A stretch of DNA of 64,000 nucleotides from contig AAUX01000001.1 of the NCBI GenBank assembly GCA_000168995.1, positions 620,001 to 684,000 on the forward strand. Direction: 5' to 3'. The position numbers were made by a program, and so were the translations under genes. Source of the stretch: Methylophilales bacterium HTCC2181 (GTDB lineage: Bacteria; Pseudomonadota; Gammaproteobacteria; Burkholderiales; Methylophilaceae). This document shows, piece by piece, positions 22,441-40,997 of the stretch (within the stretch, counting starts at the first letter, position 1; every line of letters begins with the position of its first letter). The notes beneath the pieces are model-generated. The model was not told where the DNA came from. It saw nothing but the letters and a program-made list of their open reading frames with translations, and did no database searches.

Positions 22441-24642
22441 CTAATGTTTATTCTTGCTAAGGCTTCGAGCTTTATGGAGTTTTTTATAGCTGTCCATTAA
22501 ACGTTGGTGCCTATCAAGTCCTTCTAAGTTCATATTGGTGGGAGTTAGCCCAAAAAACCGTAAACTACCCTCTATTGATCCAATGACCGCATCTATTTGT
22601 TCGTTGCCAAACATCCTACGGAAATTCGATAAGTAATTTTCCAGCTCTAAGTCCTCGTTGAGTATTATGTATAGTGACACCCTTAGGGCTTGGTAAAACA
22701 ATCCGCGCTCGACGGTATTATCGTTGTATTGAAGAAATGCTTCTGTTAGCTCATAAGCTACGTCGAATTGTTTTATGGCGAGATTGATGAGTAGCTTTAA
22801 CTCAAGAACGGTTAGTTGTCCCCACACTGAATTATCATCAAATTCAACCCCAATCAACGTCCCAATGTCAGAGTACTCATCAAGCTCGTTGTTACTCAAT
22901 CGATCGAGTAATGCGGCAAGACTATTATTGTCCAGACGATGCAGATTTAGAATATCAGCGCGAAATAGTAGTGCTTTATTGGTATTATCCCAAATTAAAT
23001 CTTCGACCGGATAAACTTCAGAATAGCCAGGAACTAAAATCCTACAAGACATAGCACCTAAGTCATTATGGGTCGCCATGTAAATCTCTTTTCCTTTGCT
23101 TTGTAGAATATTAAACAAAGCTTCGGCTTGTTCTCTATTGGAGCTTTTTCCTTTGTTTGAAAAATCCCATTCGACAAAGCTGAAGTTTGATTTGTCACTG
23201 AAGAATCGCCATGACATGATTCCGGAAGAGTCAATAAAATGTTCGACAAAGTTATTGGGTTCAGTTACTGCGTTACTGACAAAAGTGGGTGGCGGTAAAT
23301 CGTTTAGCCCCTCAAAACTTCGACCTTGTAGTAGCTCGGTAAGGCTTCTTTCTAGTGCCACCTCAAAAGATGGATGCGCTCCGAAGGATGCAAAGACGCC
23401 ACCTGTTCGTGGGTTCATTAACGTGACACACATGACTGGGTACAATCCGCCCATTGAAGCATCTTTAACTAGCACAGGAAAACCCTGTTCCTCTAATCCA
23501 TGGATGCCAGCCAGGATACCTGGGTATTTCGCCAAGACCTCGTAAGGCACATCAGGCAATGCCATTTCACCTTCTATAATTTCACGTTTTACTGCCCGTT
23601 CGAAAATTTCAGACAGACATTGTACTTGTGTTTCTGCCAATGTATTACCAGCACTCATACCGTTGCTGACGTATAGATTTTCAATCAGGTTGGATGGAAA
23701 ATACACCACCTCGCCGTCAGATTTACGCACGTAAGGAAGCGAACAGATACCACGCTGTAAATTGCCCGAGTTGGTGTCGATCAGATGCGAACCCAATAAC
23801 TCGCCATCAGGATTGAAGATTTTCAGGCAGTACTCATCGAGAATTTCCACCGGCATGGAATCGTCAGGCCCTGGTTTAAACCATTTCTCATTGGGATAGT
23901 GAACAAAGGGGAGGTTAGCCATATCTTCACCCCAAAAGGCTTCGGCATAAAAGTGATTATTGCTAAGCCGTTCGATAAACTCTCCTAAAGCAGAAGCTAA
24001 TGCACCTTCCTTGGTTGTTCCTTTCCCATTAGTAAAACAGATCGGCGAATGCGCATCCCGTATATGCAAAGACCATACATTAGGAATGATATTTCTCCAT
24101 GATGCGATTTCAATCTTTATGCCTAGATCCGCCAAAATACCGGACATATTGGCAATGGTTTTCTCCAACGGCAGATCTTTACCGGTGATGAAAGTAGTCG
24201 CGTCAGTAGCAGACTTCAGGGCCAGTACGGACTGAGCATCTATATCCAGATTTTCTACTTCCTCAATGATAAAGTCTGGCCCAGCTTGCACAACTTTTTT
24301 TACTGTACAGCGTTCAATAGAACGTAAAATACCCTGGCGATCTTTTTCTGTTATGTCGGACGGAAGCTCAACCTGAATCTTAAAGATTTGCTGATAACGG
24401 TTTTCAGGATCAACAATATTATTTTGTGACAAGCGGATATTTTCAGTAGGAATATTACGGGTTACACAGTACAACTTAACAAAATACGCTGCACACAAAG
24501 CCGATGAGGCCAGAAAGTAATCAAAGGGACCAGGAGCCGAACCATCTCCTTTATAACGGATAGGCTGATCAGCGATAACCGTAAAGTCATCAAATTTTGC
24601 TTCAAGGCGAAGTTTATCGAGAAAGTTGACTTTAATTTCCAT
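22441..24642 (-). CDS. ycaO: OsmC-domain/YcaO-domain fusion protein
   Basis: 733 residues. Residues 1-125 form an OsmC-like domain (FDYFLASSALCAAYFVKLYC, with a redox-type cysteine). Residues 165-500 are the YcaO ATP-dependent cyclodehydratase-like domain (SVHIRD-type strand, CFTNGKGTTKEGALASALGEFIERLSNNHF, YVSNGMSAGNTLAE, SLTELLQGR), and the C-terminal 200 residues are the helical TPR-like end of E. coli YcaO. E. coli YcaO lacks the OsmC part and influences beta-methylthiolation of ribosomal protein S12 with RimO. The housekeeping-like C-terminus argues against a RiPP role, and no precursor peptide is seen nearby. Confidence 0.92.
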   Translation of the reverse strand: MEIKVNFLDKLRLEAKFDDFTVIADQPIRYKGDGSAPGPFDYFLASSALCAAYFVKLYCVTRNIPTENIRLSQNNIVDPENRYQQIFKIQVELPSDITEKDRQGILRSIERCTVKKVVQAGPDFIIEEVENLDIDAQSVLALKSATDATTFITGKDLPLEKTIANMSGILADLGIKIEIASWRNIIPNVWSLHIRDAHSPICFTNGKGTTKEGALASALGEFIERLSNNHFYAEAFWGEDMANLPFVHYPNEKWFKPGPDDSMPVEILDEYCLKIFNPDGELLGSHLIDTNSGNLQRGICSLPYVRKSDGEVVYFPSNLIENLYVSNGMSAGNTLAETQVQCLSEIFERAVKREIIEGEMALPDVPYEVLAKYPGILAGIHGLEEQGFPVLVKDASMGGLYPVMCVTLMNPRTGGVFASFGAHPSFEVALERSLTELLQGRSFEGLNDLPPPTFVSNAVTEPNNFVEHFIDSSGIMSWRFFSDKSNFSFVEWDFSNKGKSSNREQAEALFNILQSKGKEIYMATHNDLGAMSCRILVPGYSEVYPVEDLIWDNTNKALLFRADILNLHRLDNNSLAALLDRLSNNELDEYSDIGTLIGVEFDDNSVWGQLTVLELKLLINLAIKQFDVAYELTEAFLQYNDNTVERGLFYQALRVSLYIILNEDLELENYLSNFRRMFGNEQIDAVIGSIEGSLRFFGLTPTNMNLEGLDRHQRLMDSYKKLHKARSLSKNKH

Positions 24643-30481: not shown

Positions 30482-30937
30482 ATGAGTATTGTTCAAAATA
30501 AAAAAGCATTTCACGATTATTTCATTGAAGCTAAGTATGAAGCCGGTATTGTGCTAGAGGGATGGGAGGTAAAAGCTATCAGGGATAATCGCGCCCATAT
30601 TAAGGAGGCCTATGTCATTATTCAGCGCGGTGAGATTTATCTCCTTGGGTGTCACATAACCCCTATGGGCAATGCCTCTACGCACATTAACCCTGAAAAT
30701 GTGCGGACACGTAAGTTGCTCCTTAACAACGATGAGATTGCCAAGCTGATAGGCAAGGTAGAACGGTCTGGTTACACCCTTGTTCCCCTGGATCTTCATT
30801 ATAAGAAGGGTTTTATCAAGTGTGAGATTGGTCTTGCCAAGGGCAAGAAGCAGTATGACAAGCGAGCGGTAGAAAAAGAAAAAGACTGGAACCGTGATAA
30901 AACCCGAATCATCCGGGCAGTCAACAAAGGAAAGTAG
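30482..30937 (+). CDS. smpB: SsrA-binding protein SmpB
   Basis: 151 residues. It binds tmRNA and brings it to stalled ribosomes for trans-translation. N-terminal [29 protein letters not shown], the LLLNNDEI...GYTLVPL core, and the C-terminal basic tail KGKKQYDKR...[10 protein letters not shown] that mimics the tRNA anticodon region and mRNA path. Its RNA partner gene ssrA starts only 19 nt after the stop. Confidence 0.98.
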
Positions 30938-30943
30938 TATAAT
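30938..30943 (+). promoter_or_regulatory. -10 element of ssrA
   Basis: A consensus TATAAT starts one base after the smpB stop codon and lies 13 nt upstream of the mature tmRNA 5' end. A -35 would fall in the smpB coding sequence and is weak. Confidence 0.5.
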
Positions 30944-30956
30944 TAAAACTTGTTTT

Positions 30957-31311
30957 GGGGCTGACCAGGTTTCGACGTGGGTTACAAAGCAGAATAGTGC
31001 ATACCGAGGCTTCTAGGTACCTCGTTAATAAACTAGAAAAACAGTAATCGCAAATGACGATAACTACGCTTTAGCTGCTTAATTCCAGCTAAACGCTGTC
31101 CTGATATGTCACTCGCTCAGGTTACAGCGTCATATAGAGAGACTCGGGGATTGTTGGGTTACTTAACAATCTCCTAAACATAAGGTAACTCGCTTTTATA
31201 TTTGCTTGCTTGTTGGTGAAGTGAAAGTTAAACATAAACAACATAGCTAAGTATGTAGATCTATCTGTAGAGGATTTGCGGACGGGGGTTCGATTCCCCC
31301 CAGCTCCACCA
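30957..31311 (+). ncRNA. ssrA: Transfer-messenger RNA (tmRNA)
   Basis: One-piece tmRNA of about 355 nt. The 5' end GGGGCTG (30957-30963) pairs with CAGCTCC (31301-31307) to form the acceptor stem, followed by ACCA. The T arm GGGGGTTCGATTCCCCC (31284-31300) is intact. The resume codon begins the tag frame at 31050, encoding ANDDNYALAA and ending with TAA at 31080-31082, a typical proteobacterial degradation tag. Downstream there is no terminator; instead the conserved leader of the cassette array begins directly. Confidence 0.97.
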
Positions 31312-31338
31312 TTACGTGTTTCATATCAAGCCTGTGAT
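31301..31338 (+). repeat. ssrA 3' end, copy 1 (att-like, in the genuine gene)
   Basis: Starts with CAGCTCCACCATTA, followed by CGTGTTTCATATCAAGCCTG and TGAT. It is the reference copy for the repeats at 33061 and 38326, which share the first 14 nt exactly and most of the rest. Confidence 0.75.
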
Positions 31339-31538
31339 GAGTAAAATGAACCAACAAGTTGCATCCACCCACCATCCATAGCGTATTTAAATATTCTTCT
31401 GCTTTAATGCTTCCCAATCTAAACTTGTTTCGTTATAGTGTTGATAAATATCCTTTATTAGGAATTTACCCTTTCGGATTCTGCTAACGACGCTTCTTTT
31501 ACGTTACTCTATAAATTACCTTTAATGAGAACATAACC
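31336..31538 (+). promoter_or_regulatory. Leader type A, copy 1 (module 1)
   Basis: 203 nt, the same length as and nearly identical to 35739-35941. It carries a TATAGT -10 at 31434-31439, giving a transcript leader of about 90 nt. The last 63 nt (31476-31538, from GGATTCTGCTAACGACG) are common to all modules. Inverted repeat TTACGTTACTC (31499-31509) / GAGAACATAA (31527-31536), with one mismatch, overlaps the ribosome binding site of the next gene. Confidence 0.65.
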
Positions 31539-32135
31539 ATGAAAAAAATACTTGCCCTATTAATCCTCATCATGACTGCCCAAACGGTACTTGCAGGAGC
31601 AGCCCCTGCAGAAATTACCTACAGCCATAAAGAGTCAACGGATACGCGTGCCTATGCGGGGCTAGTATGGACGTTAGGCAAGGACTTCAAGAAGACCCCC
31701 GAACTCACCCTAGGCCTCAGCGCGATCAAACAAGAGTCGGGCCTCGCCTTTACGGAGAACTGGATTGGCAATTCCCCGGTCAACCAACCAAGCGAATCGG
31801 TAGAGGGCGGCCTGGACTGGAGCCTACGTATCAACTTTGATAACGGGGTGGCCGTGGACAGCACTCGGCTGTTGTACCTGAATGGTGATAGAGACCTGTT
31901 AGGTAACATCGGGTTAGGCTACTCCTTTGCCGAGAACCGTCCCTTCGGCACCATTGGTGTCCAAGCCCCTTACTCTCGTATCGGTGTGGATGTCGCGTTA
32001 GACAACGGCACGCTCACCACCCCCGAATTCTTTGTGGAGCTACTGACCTTAGATAAAGAGGATCGGCTGATAGGTGATTATAGTTGTGACGGTAACGGCG
32101 GTTTATGCGGCCTACCTCAAGCTAAACCTCTTTAA
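31539..32135 (+). CDS. Exported protein of unknown family, module 1
   Basis: 198 residues with a signal peptide (MKKILALLILIMTAQTVLA). The mature part has alternating short hydrophobic strands (YAGLVWTLGKDF, WSLRINFDNGVAVDS, LGNIGLGYSFAENRPFGTIGVQAPYSRIGVDVAL), suggesting a small beta-sheet protein. It is clearly related to the protein encoded at 38568, at the far end of the array (shared W-T-G, then GLGY/LGF and APY-x-G-D patterns). Its coding sequence looks richer in G+C than most neighbours. Function unknown; no conserved domain recognised. Confidence 0.75.
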   Translation: MKKILALLILIMTAQTVLAGAAPAEITYSHKESTDTRAYAGLVWTLGKDFKKTPELTLGLSAIKQESGLAFTENWIGNSPVNQPSESVEGGLDWSLRINFDNGVAVDSTRLLYLNGDRDLLGNIGLGYSFAENRPFGTIGVQAPYSRIGVDVALDNGTLTTPEFFVELLTLDKEDRLIGDYSCDGNGGLCGLPQAKPL

Positions 32136-32143
32136 ATCCTAGG

Positions 32144-32908
32144 ATGCTGCCAGAACACCTTGTTTACTTGCTGCCCACCACGAGCGTAGTGGTGTTTAGC
32201 TTGGCAGAGAAGCTCCTGTTTGACCGGCAAGCGTTGAGCAGTAAAACCCAACCGATACTCCTGATCGTCCTCATCAATCTAGCAGTCTCACTCGGCTTTT
32301 CGGCGGCCTTGTTAATCCCGTTTGTCATGCTCGTCGCCCCATTACAACTCGCAAGCATCGCCCAGCTGGACATCCCGGGATTCGCGATGGTGAGCCTATC
32401 CTTGCTCATTATTGACCTTGTCTACTATGTCTCTCACCGCCTGCACCATCGCGTGCCCGTGCTATGGCGGTTACACCGACTGCACCACAGTGACACGCAC
32501 ATCAATGCACAGACCACACTCCTGCACCACCCCTTGGAGTTGGTGAGCAATAACCTGCTCGTCATCCTCGGTGCGGTCATCTTGGACATACCCGCGATTT
32601 GCCTCTTTTATTATAGCCTCATCCTCGGCCTTCACTCGGCATTCACCCACCTCCATGTCACGATACCACCGAAAGTGGAAAGGCTTATGCGTGGGTTTTT
32701 TATCACCCCGAACTACCATCGCCGCCATCACGCAAAAGCACTCAAGGTCAGCAACAGCAACTTCGGTATGGTCTTTGTTTATTGGGACTGGCTATGTAAC
32801 ACGGCCTTATTCCATGACGATAAGGACTCCATAGATTACGGTATTCAACCCGAAGAAACACCCAAAGCCATTAACCTCTGGCATTTCCTTATCAATCCAC
32901 TGAGGTAG
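32144..32908 (+). CDS. Fatty acid hydroxylase / sterol desaturase family protein
   Basis: 254 residues. A di-iron membrane oxygenase with the complete eight-histidine set: HRLHH (in YYVSHRLHHRVP), HRLHHSD, then HHPLE, and HRRHH (TPNYHRRHHAK), plus the SNSNFG block after it. About four membrane segments. Such enzymes hydroxylate or desaturate lipids, carotenoids or sterol-like hopanoids; the substrate is not predictable. It lies 8 nt after the module 1 exported protein, and its G+C-rich codon use matches that gene, so they probably arrived together. Confidence 0.9.
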   Translation: MLPEHLVYLLPTTSVVVFSLAEKLLFDRQALSSKTQPILLIVLINLAVSLGFSAALLIPFVMLVAPLQLASIAQLDIPGFAMVSLSLLIIDLVYYVSHRLHHRVPVLWRLHRLHHSDTHINAQTTLLHHPLELVSNNLLVILGAVILDIPAICLFYYSLILGLHSAFTHLHVTIPPKVERLMRGFFITPNYHRRHHAKALKVSNSNFGMVFVYWDWLCNTALFHDDKDSIDYGIQPEETPKAINLWHFLINPLR

Positions 32909-32958
32909 GGCACACACAGGGCATGGTGCCGGGAGTGAATTGATCAGCATTGGATGGG

Positions 32959-33099
32959 CCATCCAAAACACTTCATGGGTAAAAATATGGGTAAAAGCTC
33001 CCACCCCAAAACCCACAAGCCTTCCTATTTAATGAATAACAAATTAGAGGGGAGGGTGTACAGCTCCACCATTATGCGTTTCACATCATGACCTGTGAT
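32959..33099 (+). repeat. Trailer type X, copy 1, with ssrA-end copy 2
   Basis: Starts CCATCCAAAACACTTCATGG, contains GGGTAAAAATATGGGTAAAA and CCCCAAAACCCACAAGCC, then AGGGGAGGGTGTA and the ssrA-like end CAGCTCCACCATTA at 33061-33074. It is nearly identical to 38224-38363. The tmRNA T arm is absent, so this is an attachment-type copy and not a second tmRNA gene. Confidence 0.7.
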
Positions 33100-33281
33100 A
33101 AATCCACTGTGCTAATGACAATTCATCACTAACGCTTTGATTGTTAAACTGCCAGTCTCTCCAGACAGATAAAAAGACCCCATGAATGGAAAATTGACTT
33201 ATACTACGGTCAATCATGGATTCTGCTAACGATGCTTCTTTTACGTTACTCCTTAAATTAACCTTTAACGAGAACGTAACC
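33095..33281 (+). promoter_or_regulatory. Leader type B, copy 1 (module 2)
   Basis: Closely similar to 36780-36968. A -10 TATACT is at 33200-33205. The common 3' box is 33218-33281, with the inverted repeat TTACGTTACTC (33241-33251) / GAGAACGTAA (33270-33279), a 10-bp stem with a single bulged A. The only Shine-Dalgarno-like GAG, 9 nt from the TTG start, lies in the 3' arm. Confidence 0.65.
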
Positions 33282-34298
33282 TTGAAAAAAATACTTGCTG
33301 CTCGACTACTCACCCTTACTGCCATAGCTTTAACCCCTTTAAAACTGTTACCGATTCTACTCATCAGTTTGTATCCACATGTGTCTTTTGCAGAAGAAAC
33401 AATTACGGATAAAGAAATTAATGCGGCTATTGAAAGAATGAATCAGCGTGCAGAAATGATTAAATTAGGATCCATCAAAATTCAGGATGATTCTTACCCC
33501 AAGCTAAGAAGAATGTCACTTGACTACACCAAGGTAGATGGCAATATTTTTGATAATTCAGAAAGTGCATTCTTCGGTGTTCCTAATGCTAAGGGCCCTA
33601 GAGATGCGAAATCTTGGCGATTAGGAGTTGGAGTTCAGATAGACCCTGATTGGAATATTGGGCTAGGGATATCCACATCAGATGGCGACTCGAATATTAG
33701 TCAAGGTACACCAGGTATTGCTAATAAAAGCAGCTCTGATTCAAATGGTATATCTGGGGTAGTCCGTTATCAAATTAAGGACTGGTTGTCAGCAGGAATC
33801 TTTGGCGGTATTTCTACTGGTGATGTGAGTTCGACTAATACAGCAGCTCCCCCTCAAAGTGGTACCTCAACATTTAGAAGTCATAGTAAAGGAATTTTCT
33901 TAAGCGGAGTTCATGCATTGAGTGATGAATTGGTTTTAGCTGTTTCTCCATCGTATGTTCATGCTAAGAATGTTGCCAAATTTGACAACGTGGCCTTAGG
34001 AGACCTAAAGGTGACTACAACCAATGTCATGTGGAACTTAGACCATAATTTATCCTATTTTTTTATGAAGCAAAACTTTAGGGTAACTGCAGGTTATACC
34101 CATCATTGGAACGCCCTCGAGACAAAACAAGGCTCTAATGCACCAAGAGATAAATATTGGGGAACAGGATATATCGGAGCAACGTGGATGAATAAAGATG
34201 GCATCGAGGTTTATGGTAACGTTGGAAGAGATTTTAGCGATGCTGTTTACGATGATTCAAAAACATGGACGATTGGTATTGCCAAATCTTGGCGCTAA
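33282..34298 (+). CDS. Outer-membrane beta-barrel protein, module 2
   Basis: 338 residues from the TTG at 33282, chosen because the same codon position starts the homologous signal peptides in the other modules (xKKILAA). An upstream ATG at 33216 would start inside the leader repeat. A long signal peptide ends near VSFA-EE. A helical segment (EINAAIERMNQRAEMIKLG) precedes about ten amphipathic strands (WRLGVGVQIDPDWNIGLGIST, ISGVVRYQIKDWLSAGIFGGIST and others), ending in GNVGRDF-type and WTIGIAKSWR strands. The fold resembles an autotransporter-type or porin-like barrel. Cargo unknown. Confidence 0.75.
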   Translation: MKKILAARLLTLTAIALTPLKLLPILLISLYPHVSFAEETITDKEINAAIERMNQRAEMIKLGSIKIQDDSYPKLRRMSLDYTKVDGNIFDNSESAFFGVPNAKGPRDAKSWRLGVGVQIDPDWNIGLGISTSDGDSNISQGTPGIANKSSSDSNGISGVVRYQIKDWLSAGIFGGISTGDVSSTNTAAPPQSGTSTFRSHSKGIFLSGVHALSDELVLAVSPSYVHAKNVAKFDNVALGDLKVTTTNVMWNLDHNLSYFFMKQNFRVTAGYTHHWNALETKQGSNAPRDKYWGTGYIGATWMNKDGIEVYGNVGRDFSDAVYDDSKTWTIGIAKSWR

Positions 34299-34327
34299 AT
34301 AAAGTGAATATTCAAGGAAAATATAAT

Positions 34328-35065
34328 ATGAAAACATTACTAACTTTACTGTTACTTTTAAGCAGCAATATCATATTCGCAGGCGATGCTGGTTCTGATG
34401 GTGAACCAGAAATGAAATTATATAAAGGGGCGCTTGGGGATATATTTGATTTGGGCATGACAGATCAAGACACCGGAACGCAAACCCCAGAATTTAAAAG
34501 GCTTTACCTTATCGATACTGATGAAGGGAGAGACCTGTATCAGGTGCAGTTAGCTTTAGCCTATTCCGCTAGAGATACTGCGTTATTAGAAAAAAAGTAT
34601 GCTGAAAAAGGAGAATTGACCGATAAGGAGGATGCTTTAATTCAAGATGCAAGACATATAACTAGGGCCATTGCTTATATGGCGGTTGCATCGAAGGTAT
34701 ATACCGCTATGAAGAACGCTAAGGGGGATACTATAAAAAACCAATTTGCGCATTATTCGGCATACATAGACAGTGTTAACATATATGGTGAAGAGGATTT
34801 TATGACCGAAACAGCTTTTAATGCATTGAAGTGGTTAGTTCTAGAAATTTCGCCAATAGATATTGCGATTTTTTATTTTAATACTTCTAAAGATTCTAAA
34901 GATTCCTTTAAGAATGCTAATGTAACAGCTGCTTACCTATATGATTATGAAGTTAGACAGACGAATAATAGCTGGTTTGCTAGGAATGACATCCAAACAA
35001 TGCTGATGAATCTAGGACAAAGTATTTACACGACATGCGTATCCTGTCCTGAGCGCAGTAAATAA
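34328..35065 (+). CDS. Exported protein of unknown function, module 2
   Basis: 245 residues from the ATG at 34328, since earlier in-frame starts lie inside the barrel gene. Signal peptide MKTLLTLLLLLSSNIIFAG. The mature part is helical and charged, with repeated alanine/tyrosine-rich helices (YSARDTALLEKKYAEKGE, HITRAIAYMAVASKVYTAM), and ends in a CVSC motif (TTCVSCPERSK) that might bind metal or form a disulphide. No family recognised. It follows the barrel gene by 29 nt and is probably co-transcribed. Confidence 0.65.
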   Translation: MKTLLTLLLLLSSNIIFAGDAGSDGEPEMKLYKGALGDIFDLGMTDQDTGTQTPEFKRLYLIDTDEGRDLYQVQLALAYSARDTALLEKKYAEKGELTDKEDALIQDARHITRAIAYMAVASKVYTAMKNAKGDTIKNQFAHYSAYIDSVNIYGEEDFMTETAFNALKWLVLEISPIDIAIFYFNTSKDSKDSFKNANVTAAYLYDYEVRQTNNSWFARNDIQTMLMNLGQSIYTTCVSCPERSK

Positions 35066-35084
35066 TAATGAAGTAAGTAAACGT

Positions 35085-35522
35085 ATGAAGATTCTCAACA
35101 TAATTTCTTGTGGAATACTAATCATTTTTCCGACTTTTATTTTTGCGGGGTGGGAAGAAGATAGAGCCTGCCTACAAACGTTGATTTGTAATGTGAGTGG
35201 CCAATTTTTAAAAGATAATGAGGACAATAGAGATTGTATAGGAAAGCTTTTGCTTGCCCATAAAAATAAGGAAGACCAAGACACAGATCCGCCACCCATG
35301 TGTCTATCGCAACAACAAATTAACCTTAACCCTAGGATTGATTACACGGCAAATCGTACGGTGCCAATTCCTCCTGGTATCCCTGCCAAACCCTATTATC
35401 CTGCACTTAATGTAAAACCAACAGGGTTTCGTATAACGCCAATAGAAGATTTAGGTGCTACCCAAAAATACCCTCGTTTGCAAGGTGAGACTGCCGAACA
35501 GCATTATAATCGAGTGAAGTGA
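35085..35522 (+). CDS. Small exported cysteine-containing protein, module 2
   Basis: 145 residues. Signal peptide MKILNIISCGILIIFPTFIFA. Mature part begins GWEEDRACLQTLICNVSGQ and has four cysteines in its first half, then a proline-rich tail (PIPPGIPAKPYYPALNVKPTGF) ending in AEQHYNRVK. Unknown family. Last gene of module 2, 19 nt after the preceding gene. The cysteines and the proline-rich end suggest a periplasmic or surface-linked partner of the module's barrel (inference). Confidence 0.6.
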   Translation: MKILNIISCGILIIFPTFIFAGWEEDRACLQTLICNVSGQFLKDNEDNRDCIGKLLLAHKNKEDQDTDPPPMCLSQQQINLNPRIDYTANRTVPIPPGIPAKPYYPALNVKPTGFRITPIEDLGATQKYPRLQGETAEQHYNRVK

Positions 35523-35617
35523 GAATGGCAGTTTGCTAGCATTGACGACATCCATACGATGACCGGGAACGTAGATCTAGCAATAAACTTCTAGTATAAA
35601 TCAAGGAAAATTTACCA

Positions 35618-35744
35618 CACCTCCCACTATAACCGAAGGGGGTAGAGGGGATGAGGCCTTTCATCTTCTTCTACAAAGACATACGAGCTATGCAGATACA
35701 CGAACCCCCACTAGTGTCATAACGTCATCATGACCTGTGATGAG
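35618..35744 (+). repeat. Trailer type Y, copy 1
   Basis: 127 nt, almost identical to 36661-36787. It contains CCGAAGGGGGTAGAGGGGAT preceded by a C-rich run (potential C/G stem), then a CTTCATCTTCTTCTACAAAG-like stretch, and ends CATCATGACCTGTGATGAG. The interval 35523-35617 before it holds nothing recognisable. Confidence 0.65.
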
Positions 35745-35941
35745 TAAAATGAACCAACAAGTTGCATCTACCCACCATCCATAGCGTATTTAAATATCTT
35801 TCTGCTTTAAGGCTTCACAATATAAACATGTTTCGTTATAGTGTTAATAAATTTCCTTTATGGGGAATTTATCCTTTAGGATTCTGCTAACGATGCTTTT
35901 TTTACGTTACTCCTTAAATTAATTTTAGCGAGAACGTAAAC
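35739..35941 (+). promoter_or_regulatory. Leader type A, copy 2 (module 3)
   Basis: Partner of 31336-31538 at the same 203-nt length. The -10 TATAGT is at 35837-35842 and the common box at 35879-35941. Inverted repeat TTACGTTACTC (35902-35912) / GAGAACGTAA (35930-35939) lies 2 nt before the ATG. Confidence 0.65.
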
Positions 35942-36628
35942 ATGAAAAAAATCTTATTAGCCTTACTTTGTGCGACGAGCACGACAACCTTTGCCGACTC
36001 AAAGGTATTTGAAGGCCTATCAATTGACTTATCTGCCGGCTACCAAAAGACCGAAAGGGATGCAGCGTCAACCGCAACGGTCATTACCAATGGCGTACCT
36101 GTGGTTAGTAATATAATCACCTCATCAAACGACGATAGCAACACTAATATCATACTAGGCGCTGCTTATAATTTTGCCCTTAACAACAATTACCTGTTGG
36201 GTGTGGGTTTCGATTACGACTTTGCAGACCACAACATAGGAAACCCAATTATTGATAACGACCCAACTGATAATGGGGTAAACTGGGAATTGAGTAGCGC
36301 GATGAGCCTATACCTCAAGCCCCAACTGATGATAACCGACAAGAGCCAAGTCTACGCAAAGCTAGCCTACATCAGGGCAGACGTTGATATTACAGAGCCT
36401 GGTGCAGCAACTTTTGTTGGCTCCGATGGTGAGTCTATTGACGGTTACTCGATTGGAGCGGGTTATGCCAATATGATTGCTGGTAATGTATCGTTATTTG
36501 TGGAAGCTAATTACTTTAACTACGGTGAAGAGGACCCTCGTTCAAACTATACTACCTATACTGTGGCTACGCCTACGGATATTGATGGCTATAACGCCAA
36601 GATTGGTATCGCTTACACATTTAAGTAA
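35942..36628 (+). CDS. Outer-membrane beta-barrel protein (porin/opacity type), module 3
   Basis: 228 residues. Signal peptide MKKILLALLCATSTTTFA. The mature part is an eight-strand-type barrel: LSIDLSAGYQK, TNIILGAAYNFALNNNYLLGVGFDYDF, SLYLKPQLMITDKSQVYAKLAYI, YSIGAGYANMIAGNVSLFVEANYFNYG, ending in YNAKIGIAYTFK with the C-terminal aromatic signature. This resembles the OmpA/opacity-like small barrels. It is the only gene of module 3. Confidence 0.85.
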   Translation: MKKILLALLCATSTTTFADSKVFEGLSIDLSAGYQKTERDAASTATVITNGVPVVSNIITSSNDDSNTNIILGAAYNFALNNNYLLGVGFDYDFADHNIGNPIIDNDPTDNGVNWELSSAMSLYLKPQLMITDKSQVYAKLAYIRADVDITEPGAATFVGSDGESIDGYSIGAGYANMIAGNVSLFVEANYFNYGEEDPRSNYTTYTVATPTDIDGYNAKIGIAYTFK

Positions 36629-36660
36629 CATTCCCTTTCTAACAAAAAATTGACCTCCCA

Positions 36661-36787
36661 CACCCCCCACTATAACCGAAGGGGGTAGAGGGGATGAGGT
36701 GCTTCATCTTCTTCTACAAAGTATTACGAGCGATTCAGATACACGAACCCCAGCTAGTGTAATGCCTTCATCATGACCTGTGATGAG
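36661..36787 (+). repeat. Trailer type Y, copy 2
   Basis: Second copy of the 127-nt trailer at 35618-35744, with about a dozen differences by eye. Here it follows the module 3 barrel gene by 32 nt and leads into a type B leader instead of type A. Confidence 0.65.
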
Positions 36788-36968
36788 TCCACTGTAACAA
36801 TGACAACTCATAGGTAACCCTTTGATTGTTAATTCTTTAGGCTCTTCGCACAACAGATAAAAAGACCGCATGAATGGAAAATTGACTTATAATACGATAA
36901 ATCCTGGATTCTGTTAACGACGCTTCTTTTACGTTACTCCTTAAATTACCTTTAACGAGAACGTAACC
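36780..36968 (+). promoter_or_regulatory. Leader type B, copy 2 (module 4)
   Basis: -10 TATAAT at 36888-36893, 75 nt before the start codon. The common box is 36906-36968, with inverted repeat TTACGTTACTC (36929-36939) / GAGAACGTAA (36957-36966). The first gene starts with TTG, as in module 2. Confidence 0.65.
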
Positions 36969-37682
36969 TTGAAAAAAATCCTTGCTGCTCTACTATTAAC
37001 CCTGCCCACACTAGCTGTTGCTGTGGATTTAGACGGTTATTACTTCACTGCCAAAGGCGGTGTTTCCAAATCAATAGATACAGGGGTGACAAGCTTTACG
37101 AATCATGTCCCAGTTACTCAATTGCTTTCGGATGAAGATTTAGGAACGGGCACAGCTTTTGGTTTGAGTGCGGGTAAATACCTAACGGACAACTTTAGAT
37201 TAGAGCTAGAAGTAATAAAACGAGATAACTATGAATATGAGGCTCAATGGCTTGTTCTTCGTACCTTAAGTGAAAAAGCGGATATTGAGTCTACCAGTTT
37301 ATTTATCAATGGCTTTTATGATTTCCAGCCTTTTTCCATAGGCAATACCTCCATTACGCCTTATCTAGGAGGTGGTATCGGTATCTCAAGAAATAAAATG
37401 GGCACAACAATCGGACTCAATAATGGTGTTCCTGATATTGATACTAAAGAGGGTAATACTATTTCAGAGTTTGCTTATAAATTATCCGCAGGTACATTGT
37501 TTAGCTTAACGGAAAATATCTCTCTGGATGTGAATTACCAGTATGTAAATTTAGGTGAATTTGAAAGTGGCACTGCACTTTATAATGATGGAGTGTTCAT
37601 CGCTAACTTCCAACGCCCATTTAACGGCGGTGACATCAAAACCCAAGAAATAATGGTGGGACTGCAATACACATTTAAGTAG
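36969..37682 (+). CDS. Outer-membrane beta-barrel protein, module 4
   Basis: 237 residues with a TTG start. Signal peptide xKKILAALLLTLPTLAVA. The mature barrel has DGYYFTAKGGVSKSIDTG, FGLSAGKYLTDNFRLELEVIKR, TPYLGGGIGISRNK, FAYKLSAGTLFSLTENISLDVNYQYVNLG and the C-terminal IMVGLQYTFK. It is an OmpW/opacity-like eight-strand barrel, related in plan but not closely in sequence to the module 3 protein. Followed after 38 nt by a lipoprotein gene. Confidence 0.85.
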   Translation: MKKILAALLLTLPTLAVAVDLDGYYFTAKGGVSKSIDTGVTSFTNHVPVTQLLSDEDLGTGTAFGLSAGKYLTDNFRLELEVIKRDNYEYEAQWLVLRTLSEKADIESTSLFINGFYDFQPFSIGNTSITPYLGGGIGISRNKMGTTIGLNNGVPDIDTKEGNTISEFAYKLSAGTLFSLTENISLDVNYQYVNLGEFESGTALYNDGVFIANFQRPFNGGDIKTQEIMVGLQYTFK

Positions 37683-37720
37683 TATTCACTTTTTTTAGTA
37701 AAAATTTAAAAGGAATTTTA

Positions 37721-38206
37721 ATGACTTATTTATTACCCTTGTTCTTGGCGTTAAGCATGCTTGGTTGCGCTTCTATTAAAAATATTACCAATCCGTTAAA
37801 GGATGATGAGCCTAAAAAATCTCTAGAAGAAAACAATACAACCACGAAACCCGCTAACGCAGACGTTAGTGAGGCAGAGCTTTATTTTTATAGGCAAACG
37901 GACATCCTTACCATTGGCCAAACCGTTGAGCTTTATGTCAATGACGATGAGATTGGTGAGCTTGGCCATGGCGAGAGTCTCTTTAAGAAAGTCCCCATTG
38001 GTAAGTATGAGCTAATAACTAAGGTAGGGCTTAGTATAAGTATCCCAGTTACCGGTTTTGGTGGTGCATGTAAATTTGCTAAAGACTTCCCTTTGGTTGA
38101 TGCTACCCACTACTTTAAAATAAAATTTAGCCCAGGGATATTCTGTGGAGAGCATGAGGTCATTGAAATTTCGGGATCAGAATACAAAAAACTAAAAGAA
38201 AAGTAA
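37721..38206 (+). CDS. DUF2846-like lipoprotein, module 4
   Basis: 161 residues. The lipobox-like end of the signal peptide (LSMLGC, cysteine at 16) predicts a lipid-anchored protein. The mature domain (AELYFYRQTDIL, VELYVNDDEIGELGHGESLFKKVPIGKYELITKVG) resembles the DUF2846 family of small periplasmic beta-sandwich lipoproteins. Probably anchored in the outer membrane next to the module's barrel protein. No enzymatic residues are evident. Confidence 0.75.
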   Translation: MTYLLPLFLALSMLGCASIKNITNPLKDDEPKKSLEENNTTTKPANADVSEAELYFYRQTDILTIGQTVELYVNDDEIGELGHGESLFKKVPIGKYELITKVGLSISIPVTGFGGACKFAKDFPLVDATHYFKIKFSPGIFCGEHEVIEISGSEYKKLKEK

Positions 38207-38223
38207 TAACGCTCGGCTTATTG

Positions 38224-38363
38224 CCATCCAAAACATTTAATGGGTAAAAATATGGGTAAAAGCCCGCACCCCAAAACCCACAAGCCTTCCTAGTTCCTGA
38301 ATAAAAGATCAGAGGGGAGGGTGTACAGCTCCACCATTATGCGTTTCATATCATGCGTGTGAT
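38224..38363 (+). repeat. Trailer type X, copy 2, with ssrA-end copy 3
   Basis: Second copy of 32959-33099, including GGGTAAAAATATGGGTAAAA and the ssrA 3'-end sequence CAGCTCCACCATTA (38326-38339). It marks the distal ssrA-derived repeat of the array. Confidence 0.7.
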
Positions 38364-38567
38364 AAGCACACTGTGCCAATGACAACCCGTCACTCAACCC
38401 TTTGATTGTTGAGCTTCTAGGCTCTTAACACAATTAAAAAAACACCCCATAAATAGAAAGCTAACTTATAATACGATAAATCCTGGAATCTGCTAACGAC
38501 GCCTCTATTACGTTACTCCTTAAATTAACCTTTAGCGAATGTGAAAGAAAAGGAATGCTAAAAATAT
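38359..38567 (+). promoter_or_regulatory. Leader type B, copy 3, degenerate (module 5)
   Basis: -10 TATAAT at 38467-38472. The common box begins at 38485, but the 3' arm of the inverted repeat has decayed: TTACGTTACTC (38508-38518) now faces GCGAATGTGAA (38535-38545). The start codon lies further away, after a new AAAAGGA ribosome binding site region. Confidence 0.6.
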
Positions 38568-39107
38568 ATGTTACGACCTAAAATTAACTTACTCCGAATG
38601 TATGTTTTGATGGCTGTCATGCATAACCCAATCGTTCAAGCGGAAAATACTAAATCCGATAATAATATTTATGGCGCTCTTAAATGGACCTTTGGAGAAG
38701 GAATAAAACCAGAGGCCGTCGTAGGTTTGAGACGCGCTAAAATAAATACCAGTGGGAATGTTGACGGACAAGACTTCTCTTTAACCGTAAAGTTTTTTGA
38801 TGGTCTTGAGATCCAACAGGTACGTGGAAAATATTTTAATGGAAAAGAAAATATCCAAAGCGAGCTCAGTCTAGGATTTGACTTAAAAAAGGGGATGTTT
38901 TCTGGTGTCGGGCTTAATGCTCCCTACCTTAATACAGGTATTGATATTTTTCCGCTCTCTAATTATACAATTGAGACTTACCTTCATTTGGATACAGTCG
39001 CAAAATACAAGAGAATGCAATCAACCCAAGAACAATCTTTTCTTTTTGGGCAGGAAGAGCAAATTGGTGATTTCCTTGGTGGTGGGATGGATTTAAGTGG
39101 CATATAG
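38568..39107 (+). CDS. Exported protein, paralogue of the module 1 protein
   Basis: 179 residues. The signal-like N-terminus (MLRPKINLLRMYVLMAVMHNPIVQA) differs from the MKKIL type of the other modules. The mature part shares the layout of the protein at 31539: IYGALKWTFGEG, FSLTVKFFDGLEIQQVRGKYFNGKE, LSLGFDLKKGMFSGVGLNAPYLNTGIDIF, and a C-terminal glycine-rich tail (GDFLGGGMDLSGI). Probably a small beta-structured periplasmic or outer-membrane protein. Function unknown. Confidence 0.7.
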   Translation: MLRPKINLLRMYVLMAVMHNPIVQAENTKSDNNIYGALKWTFGEGIKPEAVVGLRRAKINTSGNVDGQDFSLTVKFFDGLEIQQVRGKYFNGKENIQSELSLGFDLKKGMFSGVGLNAPYLNTGIDIFPLSNYTIETYLHLDTVAKYKRMQSTQEQSFLFGQEEQIGDFLGGGMDLSGI

Positions 39108-39121
39108 ATAGCGTCATCTTT

Positions 39122-39814
39122 ATGAAAAATCCTAAGCTGGTAAGCATTTTAACCCCAACATACAATCGAAGAAGATTTATCCCTCAATATTTACATAATA
39201 TCAAACACCAAGACTATAAAGGGAACATTGAAATTATTATACTTGATGATGGGATTGATAATATCTCAGACCTTATCCCCAATGACGAGCGCTTTAAATA
39301 TATAAAGATTAATTCAAAACAACCTATTGGTTATAAGAGAAACTTTCTTTGTCATGAGGCCCGTGGCGATATCTTAATTCATATGGATGATGATGATTAT
39401 TACCCACCACAACGGATTAGTCATGCCGTTGAAACCTTATCCAACGCTGGGGACGAGACACTGATAGCAGGTTCATCCCTGATCTATTTTTACGACAAAA
39501 ACTTAGGCATTCGTCAATTTGGCAAAATTAATCTGGAACGAGGCTACCATGCCCATGCCGGGACTTTTGCTTTTTTTAAGGAGTATCTAGAGACGAATCA
39601 ATTTGATGATCAAGCACTTAAAGGAGAGGAGCTTATTTTTACTCATCACTTCACTAATCCGCTTAGCCAGCTGAATCCCCTTAAAACCATTCTGGTAACT
39701 AGCCATAACAATAATACGGTTCCAAAAACAAAATTAATGGGCATAGAGACACCGTATACGATTGAACAATTTATTAAGGATAGTCGAGCCTGTCATTTCT
39801 ATAAAACCTTGTGA
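39122..39814 (+). CDS. Glycosyltransferase family 2
   Basis: 230 residues of GT-A fold. The N-terminal LVSILTPTYNRRRFIPQYLHNIKHQDYKG, the UDP-binding IEIIILDDG, and the metal-binding DxD block HMDDDDYYPP are clear, with GEELIFTHHF as the likely catalytic-base region. Short for the family but without obvious truncation. It probably transfers a sugar to a surface glycan. It lies 14 nt after the module 5 gene and may share its transcript. Confidence 0.88.
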   Translation: MKNPKLVSILTPTYNRRRFIPQYLHNIKHQDYKGNIEIIILDDGIDNISDLIPNDERFKYIKINSKQPIGYKRNFLCHEARGDILIHMDDDDYYPPQRISHAVETLSNAGDETLIAGSSLIYFYDKNLGIRQFGKINLERGYHAHAGTFAFFKEYLETNQFDDQALKGEELIFTHHFTNPLSQLNPLKTILVTSHNNNTVPKTKLMGIETPYTIEQFIKDSRACHFYKTL

Positions 39815-40052
39815 TCTAATGCGGCCGAAATGATCTAGCAAAGGCCATAGTATTCAAGTGAGAGTAAATTAAATGTGAGATGGCCGTTCTAAGAAAGAAA
39901 ATAAAATAAGTTCAGCGGAATAATGCCACCCAGAGCTGTGTTGAGAAGCTGCCAGTTGGATTTTTATTTTTGGCTTATTAATTATTTTCTATTTAAATAT
40001 ATGAGTGATACAGTTTTTATAAAAATATTATAAAGAGGTGAAAGCCAAACAT

Positions 40053-40997
40053 TTAAAAGGGAAAGATTTCCTTATGATGAATCATTTTTAACTCCTCTTT
40101 ATTATCTAGCCGCATAATAGCTTCGATTTTATTCATGACTCTCACCAGCATTGGAAAGAGATTATGTTCGTGCATAACACTTTCTTTTGCATGCTGAAGT
40201 TGTTCTTTGAACCTAAGGTCATAATTCTCTTTAATTGCCCTGTCGATTAGTAATATTGACTCCTGAATATTATTAATATTTATCGGTTGAAAAGAATTTT
40301 CTGGAAAATAAGAGTTTAAATTAGGACATCCATAATAGATGGGGTAGGTTCCATTAATGAAACAGTCAGAAAGTTTCTCTGTAAAATAATGATCAAACTC
40401 CGCATTTTCTATAACAATTTGAAATCTATAATTTTCAAGAGACTCTATTTTGTCTGCCATCGTTCTAAACCCCCGGCCAAAAAGATCTAAACTTTCGCCG
40501 TAATGATTTTTTAATTTTTTTGCAAAGTCTATTCGTTTAATATGACCAGGTGTATATTGTTTGTTCGAAGTGATTATGGAGCATAATTTAGACTTCGGTT
40601 TATTTGCAAGCGCTTGCAATTCATAAAAATTCATACATTTTGAATCGTTTGGTTTTTGTGGATCCCAACCCAAAAACCACGTTAATCCGCCATGATGGTA
40701 TATAACCCCCTCTCTGTTCTTGATAGTTTTATCTTGAGTGATTATCCACCTAAATTGGTTGAGGTAATCAATACTATATTTAAAGAAAGAGGGCGGCTCG
40801 GTAGAAATATGTAAGGTATTCTCACTTGGACATTTAATTTTTATAGGTTCTGGTGCATTATCAAAGACCACTAAAAAGTCATAGGGTAAATTTTTTTCAT
40901 TAAAAATAAATTGCCAATCACCCCAGAAGGGTTGCGACCCAGGAAATTGCCTCAACCAAGGATTAGGATGTCTTGATACTACATTTATTGTCTTCAT
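40053..40997 (-). CDS. Glycosyltransferase family 10 (fucosyltransferase-like)
   Basis: 314 residues. The C-terminal donor-binding motif YFTEKLSDCFINGTYPIYYGCPNL is the family 10 signature (F-x-EK...G-x-x-P-IY-x-G) of alpha-1,3/4-fucosyltransferases. The N-terminal acceptor part has STEPPSFFKY and KLCSIITSNKQYTPGHIKRIDFAKKL. It would decorate lipopolysaccharide or another surface glycan. The gene converges on the GT2 gene across 238 nt in which I see nothing. No GDP-fucose synthesis gene is in the window. Confidence 0.85.
   Translation of the reverse strand: MKTINVVSRHPNPWLRQFPGSQPFWGDWQFIFNEKNLPYDFLVVFDNAPEPIKIKCPSENTLHISTEPPSFFKYSIDYLNQFRWIITQDKTIKNREGVIYHHGGLTWFLGWDPQKPNDSKCMNFYELQALANKPKSKLCSIITSNKQYTPGHIKRIDFAKKLKNHYGESLDLFGRGFRTMADKIESLENYRFQIVIENAEFDHYFTEKLSDCFINGTYPIYYGCPNLNSYFPENSFQPININNIQESILLIDRAIKENYDLRFKEQLQHAKESVMHEHNLFPMLVRVMNKIEAIMRLDNKEELKMIHHKEIFPF

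Follow-up and report, generated by a model that had tools for sequence, protein, structure and literature searches.

Probable accretion of units at the ssrA gene

The transfer-messenger RNA (tmRNA) gene, ssrA, of Methylophilales bacterium HTCC2181 is followed by a tandem array of genes for exported proteins, which on sequence grounds we consider likely to have formed by accretion of cargo-only units at ssrA that share an export-expression leader. The array lies in a window of 64 kb, the whole stretch of DNA analysed (G000:C3:620001-684000), which belongs to a small genome of 1.30 Mb in 3 contigs that is 95% complete, from a genus that probably falls within the OM43 clade; positions below are those of the window unless a contig or locus is named. 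Five modules (M1 to M5), each consisting of a leader and the genes behind it, were found downstream of ssrA (30957-31311, plus strand) through position 39107, bearing out the claim of a first-pass annotation that five modules follow the tmRNA gene, and its repeats and the position of ssrA were also recovered. An Rfam scan of 30900-40000 matched tmRNA models only. All five modules have the same orientation and a leader of their own, suggesting that they are probably expressed together.

At the 3' end of the intact ssrA, the presumed insertion target, stands the att-like 14-nt sequence CAGCTCCACCATTA (31301-31314), comprising the last 11 nt of the gene plus TTA. Two further copies, displaced ssrA 3' ends, are present at 33061-33074 and 38326-38339, both on the plus strand. 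The sequence occurs exactly three times in the window, on one strand and always in the array, with 0.04 occurrences expected in a search that tolerated one mismatch, and no further ssrA repeat was found behind the last gene, M5a, within the window. These copies delimit a predicted unit 1 of 1.76 kb (31312-33074), a unit 2 of 5.27 kb (33075-38339) and a unit 3 with an open end starting at 38340. Both displaced copies adjoin, on their 5' side, a right-end trailer (32958-33060 and 38223-38325, plus strand); these trailers, which precede M2 and M5, are 92% identical over 133 nt and carry a direct repeat (32975-32995 and 38240-38260) with 9/9 bases matching at a 12-bp spacing. Among the 31 genomes of the genus (HTCC2181 and 30 genus mates), the right-end trailer was identified in three, the other two being G024 (97% identity over 110 nt) and G025 (92% over 78 nt), and both matches stop 2-5 nt beyond an ssrA fragment. 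In G024 the trailer is preceded by an autotransporter-type barrel gene. The ssrA 3'-end repeats, together with the recurrence of the trailer before an ssrA fragment but behind another beta-barrel gene, point to integrase-less units stacked at ssrA.

DNA downstream of ssrA could be compared in 16 of the 30 genus mates, over no more than 3.4 and 0.9 kb in two of them. Eight of these 16 loci contain additional ssrA 3' ends, one or two each, and the core shared by the HTCC2181 leaders (see below) follows ssrA in none of the 16. A common first gene behind ssrA was noted in G001, G003 and G015. In G003 the CCA end of ssrA is immediately followed by a 224-nt insert in which no gene was recognised and which itself ends in an ssrA fragment, and G015 provides the corresponding empty site, with 116/120 flanking bases identical; a second copy of the right end of the insert (117/120) is located further downstream in G003, a genome with just two Phage_integrase genes. 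The first-pass proposal of exported-protein cassettes inserted behind ssrA thus agrees with the ssrA repeats, the right end common to G024 and G025, and the filled and empty sites in the genus. The content behind ssrA thus differs between genomes, in a comparison made across the genus.

The spacing of the trailer repeat recurs at other borders. We surveyed 22 stretches beside ssrA or other presumed borders, allowing spacings of 10-13, and found a perfect 9-base direct repeat in eight of them, in all eight at spacing 12; the other 14 have no perfect repeat. The eight are not all independent, as M2 and M5 have the same sequence, as do G005 and G027. One of the eight sits in G026 between ssrA and an integrase gene with an Arm-DNA-bind_3 domain, an integrase that we take to be of the P4 type. 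One of these 14, the stretch behind a tRNA-Leu fragment in G022, matches at 8/9 bases with spacing 11 (shuffle P 0.095).

Integrase and transfer families were absent from the ten array-region proteins scanned, and a search of the HTCC2181 genome for tyrosine recombinases yielded just XerD and a XerC-type protein (334.1 bits against a cut-off of 335.15). Since ssrA serves as a prophage integration site (PMC9004378, available text), the array might alternatively be a phage satellite or prophage remnant. This we regard as very unlikely, as nine of the ten proteins have no PHROG match at E 0.01 and the tenth matches glycosyltransferase families only, viral contigs hold neither an exact match to the leader or trailer patterns nor a relative of two cargo families, and phage records contain no relative of M2a or M2b.

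According to the accretion model, cargo-only units that encode no integrase would have inserted successively at the 3' end of ssrA, probably through a tyrosine integrase that a related element provided in trans; each insertion would leave an ssrA 3'-end repeat as a border. The left end of a unit would be a portable export-expression leader comprising a promoter region and the core, to which four of the five modules add the opening codons of a signal peptide, and different exported proteins would have been joined behind it. Modules M3 and M4 may have been added inside unit 2 by recombination at a junction motif, TCATCATGACCTGTGATGAG, and not at ssrA. Variation would arise between genomes rather than by switching. 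The order of insertion, the supply of an integrase from another element, the activity of the promoters and the expression and surface location of the products are inferences in this scheme.

Several observations weigh against this model. The exact ssrA repeat is short, at 14 nt, and since M3 and M4 lack it, insertion at ssrA accounts for the borders at M1, M2 and M5 only. M3 and M4 are instead preceded by a second trailer type, X (35615-35744 and 36658-36787, plus strand; 86% identical over 143 nt), which ends not in an ssrA fragment but in the junction motif (35725-35744 and 36768-36787). Of the 31 genus genomes, three have the right-end trailer and two have X, and X occurs at five places in HTCC2181 and elsewhere in the genus just as a 46-nt match in G016. 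The stretch directly behind the HTCC2181 ssrA has no 12-bp-spaced repeat (6/9 bases only), and those at M2 and M5, being copies of a single sequence, do not count as independent. No integrase was found in the units or in the rest of the 95%-complete genome, serine recombinases not having been searched for. Finally, the comparison is confined to genus mates and other family members.

Leaders and their shared core

Two leader types can be distinguished, A in M1 (31312-31538) and M3 (35745-35941), and B in M2 (33075-33281), M4 (36788-36968) and M5 (38340-38567, diverged close to the start codon), all on the plus strand. Their upstream parts differ, and one core of about 75 nt that extends into the first codons is common to both (31474-31548 in M1, 33216-33291 in M2, 35877-35951 in M3, 36904-36978 in M4 and 38483-38551 in M5). 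The first-pass annotation had described conserved leaders and trailers; both are conserved, as two leader types with a common core and two trailer types rather than one of each. The M1 and M3 leaders are 89% identical over 219 nt, and over 101 nt the M2 leader is 91% identical to that of M4 and 82% to that of M5. When the leader intervals were aligned with each other, scores were 14-67 standard deviations (sd) above 100 base shuffles in all 10 module pairs. Mature coding DNA (300 nt) scored within 1.5 sd of shuffles in nine of the 10 pairs, the sole exception being M3 and M4 (3.9 sd), which both encode OMP_b-brl proteins, so that the proposed combination of conserved leaders with unrelated mature proteins mostly holds. 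Between M2 and M4 ungapped similarity extends through codon 16. An MKKIL-type start, which had been ascribed to the modules generally, is present in four of the five first genes, of which two begin with TTG, and is missing from M5.

Candidate promoters are TTCCCA-17-TATAGT in M1 (31411-31439) and TTCACA-17-TATAGT in M3 (35814-35842), both matches to the consensus only, of which 29 were found against 19.8 expected. A hairpin can be drawn in the core, and the number of shuffled sequences (of 200) folding at least as well was 0 for M2, 7 for M3, 12 for M4, 124 for M1 and 117 for M5. Because the hairpin is poor in M1 and M5 and shows no compensatory change (0 of 14 pairs in seven sequences), we do not claim a regulatory RNA in the core.

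The same module structure bears on two further explanations. Tandem duplication of one porin gene with subsequent divergence of the coding parts would agree with the common Pfam family of M3 and M4a and the homology of M1a and M5a. It would leave unexplained why mature DNA shows no more than chance similarity in nine of 10 pairs when the identity of non-coding leaders of one type is 81-89%, why the G+C content of M1 is about 0.1 above that of most modules, and why M1a has relatives in five other genera with an M1b relative adjacent in 7 of 12 loci; we reject this explanation as highly improbable, the G+C and leader data telling against it. A surface-antigen switching locus of the vsp, sap or pilS kind, with cassettes moved into expression within a lineage, would likewise show mature parts that vary behind a conserved leader and signal peptide. 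Here each module has its leader in the same orientation, inverted repeats are limited to two imperfect ones of 20-25 nt, and no recombinase was detected in a scan of ten proteins that did not extend to serine invertases encoded elsewhere. Having found neither silent cassettes nor invertible DNA, we consider switching highly improbable and set it aside. Of the system for swapping surface proteins suggested by the first-pass annotation there remains the part that different genomes carry different DNA at this site; silent copies or a switch signature were not seen.

A covariance model of the core (R1) matched four of 150 Methylophilaceae genomes, with five copies in HTCC2181 and one each in G011, G018 and G022. 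In G022 and G018 the core lies downstream of a displaced tRNA-Leu fragment and upstream of different outer-membrane protein (OMP) genes; the G022 copy (L038:6284-7560) leads a porin gene between the tRNA-Leu fragment and the intact tRNA-Leu gene, and G022 also carries the G018-type OMP gene, outside this locus and without the core. The corresponding place in G016 has a porin gene and no core. In G011 the core is located near a panB-like gene (identified by eye), ahead of an almost immediate stop, and a partial copy in HTCC2181 (C3:871343) leads into a TraX-like gene. A search with the core pattern in a genome contig database, from which HTCC2181 itself may be excluded, returned one record, JAOMTQ010000005.1 (AH-273-G03), with a leader as in G022. 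A 27-nt core match in G010 (E 6.6e-4, looser DNA search) was not counted, as the covariance model does not confirm it. Different genes thus stand behind the core in different places, indicating that it does not belong to any single gene; in three genomes it lies beside a displaced tRNA-gene (tDNA) fragment. Its position after the tRNA-Leu fragment and before different OMP genes makes the core look like the end of a portable element.

The strongest competing explanation, to which we give a chance somewhat below even and which overlaps with accretion, is that a porin gene, for example M4a, has the leader as its native 5' region, which was copied by homologous recombination ahead of other exported genes and favoured through good or co-regulated expression, the insertion at ssrA being incidental. 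Consistent with this, the G022 core is upstream of an M4a homologue (66% identity), leader types A and B are alike mainly in the core, and the borders at M3 and M4 are not ssrA repeats. M4a relatives occur at other loci of the genus, and the leader may therefore be the control region of the porin itself, a further point against accretion of units with a portable leader. Arguing the other way, the core precedes another OMP gene in G018, three porin loci in G016 and one in G018 lack it, and in G018 and G022 it follows the displaced tRNA-Leu fragment as a likely element end.

A second conserved leader, TTTGCCCACTTAATTGTCTGGGGGTAAACT, was observed at 11 distinct places in loci of relatives (L013, L015, L016, L102, L111, L043, L046, L047, L050 and two in L045; at most 7/34 substitutions, no chance control). 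Eight of the 11 lead into a reading frame, six of these eight with an ATG 6 nt behind the leader, and five of the eight frames have a signal-peptide-like start (by eye). Separately, signal peptides of the type MKKLLLLLFLIPNLVMG precede different mature proteins in eight distinct reading frames, one of just 26 amino acids, in L045, L050, L007:28-489 and overlapping loci.

Cargo genes

All cargo genes are on the plus strand. M1 encodes an exported protein with the MKKIL start and no Pfam match (M1a, 31539-32135) and a fatty acid hydroxylase (M1b, 32144-32908; PF04116), for which the best NCBIfam model is OlsE, far below cut-off. Both genes have a G+C content of 0.52, against 0.37-0.44 in the remaining modules. 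The M1a family was identified in 13 of 187 Methylophilaceae genomes and 6 of 24 genera, within its own genus here only, and of the 12 outside loci seven have an M1b relative adjoining the M1a relative and one has a TraX-like gene beside it. A pair of the M1a/M1b type in L120 is located downstream of tRNA-Ser(TGA) and a def-like gene, and a copy of the X trailer in HTCC2181 (L062) is also downstream of tRNA-Ser(TGA) and a def-like gene (def by eye in both). In M5, M5a (38568-39107) is an M1a homologue without the MKKIL start (BLASTP E 1e-12). The modules had been described as containing unrelated genes, which is mostly so and too strong for this pair.

M2 comprises three genes. M2a (33282-34298, TTG start) is barrel-like, with weak, sub-cut-off matches to barrel families, and by eye the signal peptide of the leader is apparently fused ahead of a second one, a relative in the same genome (C3:869516-870475) having one; two signal peptides in series suggest that the leader was joined ahead of a complete gene. 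No M2a relative was found in the other genomes of the 187 or in plasmid records. M2b (34328-35065) has a signal-peptide-like start by eye and no family above cut-off; one weak PADLOC match (E 0.0075) does not lead us to read it as a defence gene. M2c (35085-35522) encodes a small protein with a signal-peptide-like start, five cysteines and no family. M3 encodes an outer-membrane beta-barrel (35942-36628; PF13505), and M4 an opacity-type porin (M4a, 36969-37682; PF13505 and PF02462, TTG start), with relatives in four of 30 genus mates (G013, G016, G018 and G022), and a protein that is lipoprotein-like by eye with a DUF2846 match below cut-off (M4b, 37721-38206). Structure predictions for M1a (two-row alignment) and M2a (alone) gave no usable fold, with mean predicted local distance difference test scores of 31.5 and 33.3. 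Two glycosyltransferase genes lie on the 3' side of the array, one of family 2 (39122-39814) and one of family 10 (40053-40997, minus strand).

A second cassette-like locus is present in HTCC2181 beside a 5-formyltetrahydrofolate cyclo-ligase-like gene (by eye; L007:1384-6732), with an M1a-family gene, a TraX-like gene, an M2a-related barrel and a decayed M2c-like remnant. Elsewhere in the window, 22441-24642 encodes a long protein resembling an OsmC-YcaO fusion (by eye).

Implications and comparison with known systems

As a tentative and rather doubtful extension, integrase-less units whose left end is an export platform of promoter, untranslated leader and signal-peptide start may be a means by which streamlined Methylophilaceae acquire surface proteins at ssrA and tRNA genes in an integron-like manner, with TTTGCCCACTTAATTGTCTGGGGGTAAACT as a second platform. 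If the platform reading is true, any reading frame joined to the leader would become an expressed, exported protein. Accretion at ssrA, the likelier reading, would already connect the variable outer surface of aquatic bacteria with small genomes to tmRNA and tRNA genes as sites of short inserts that lack an integrase. It also suggests a route by which foreign genes could arrive ready for expression and export. A displaced target fragment with a 12-bp-spaced direct repeat could serve as a search signature for units that lack a telltale integrase.

The array has the features of an additive tDNA island as understood in PMC5217437 and PMC3146451, namely an intact target with displaced target fragments as direct repeats, and different content at ssrA in relatives with a filled and an empty site (G003 and G015). 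It also corresponds in layout to a cis-mobilizable element (CIME), having predicted att-like borders at 31301, 33061 and 38326 and no integration or transfer family in the ten proteins scanned, and differs from an autonomous integrative element in having no integrase of its own. An integron would be expected to have an integron integrase; models of this enzyme scored far below cut-off in the HTCC2181 genome, where attC sites were not searched for. The vsp and vsa genes of Mycoplasma and the sap genes of Campylobacter fetus combine a conserved leader and signal peptide with a variable mature part, one site being expressed and the others silent or switched. The array resembles them in the first respect and differs in showing no sign of switching.

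The closest counterparts are the islands of Dehalococcoides, of which the available text describes multiple copies in tandem behind ssrA, bounded by direct repeats of the ssrA 3' end; 15 of 31 have no integration module and may be cis-mobilizable elements growing by accretion (PMC3146451). The array shares with them the tandem position at ssrA, the ssrA 3' repeats and units without integration genes, and differs in having 14-nt instead of 20-bp repeats, no integrase instead of a serine recombinase, and exported and outer-membrane cargo behind a common leader instead of rdhA-rich cargo. Within Methylophilaceae itself, an additive island is marked by repeated copies of the final 20 bp of tRNA-Lys, target-gene repeats being common to both cases, and a second variable island contains a tmRNA gene; the accessible part of that report mentions neither ssrA 3' repeats nor common leaders (PMC10872708). 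Tycheposons have a tRNA border and a tyrosine recombinase (PMC10872708, same part), unlike the array with its ssrA border and no recombinase, and for the additive flexible islands of Alteromonas the text available mentions no common 5' leader (PMC5217437). The first-pass annotation knew of no described system of this form. As far as these partial sources go, the tandem layout at ssrA (PMC3146451) and additive islands in Methylophilaceae (PMC10872708) have been described, while among the papers listed in the literature searches we recognised no description of a common expression leader with changing exported cargo. The additive type of island is therefore known, and the shared, reusable expression leader is the unusual part.

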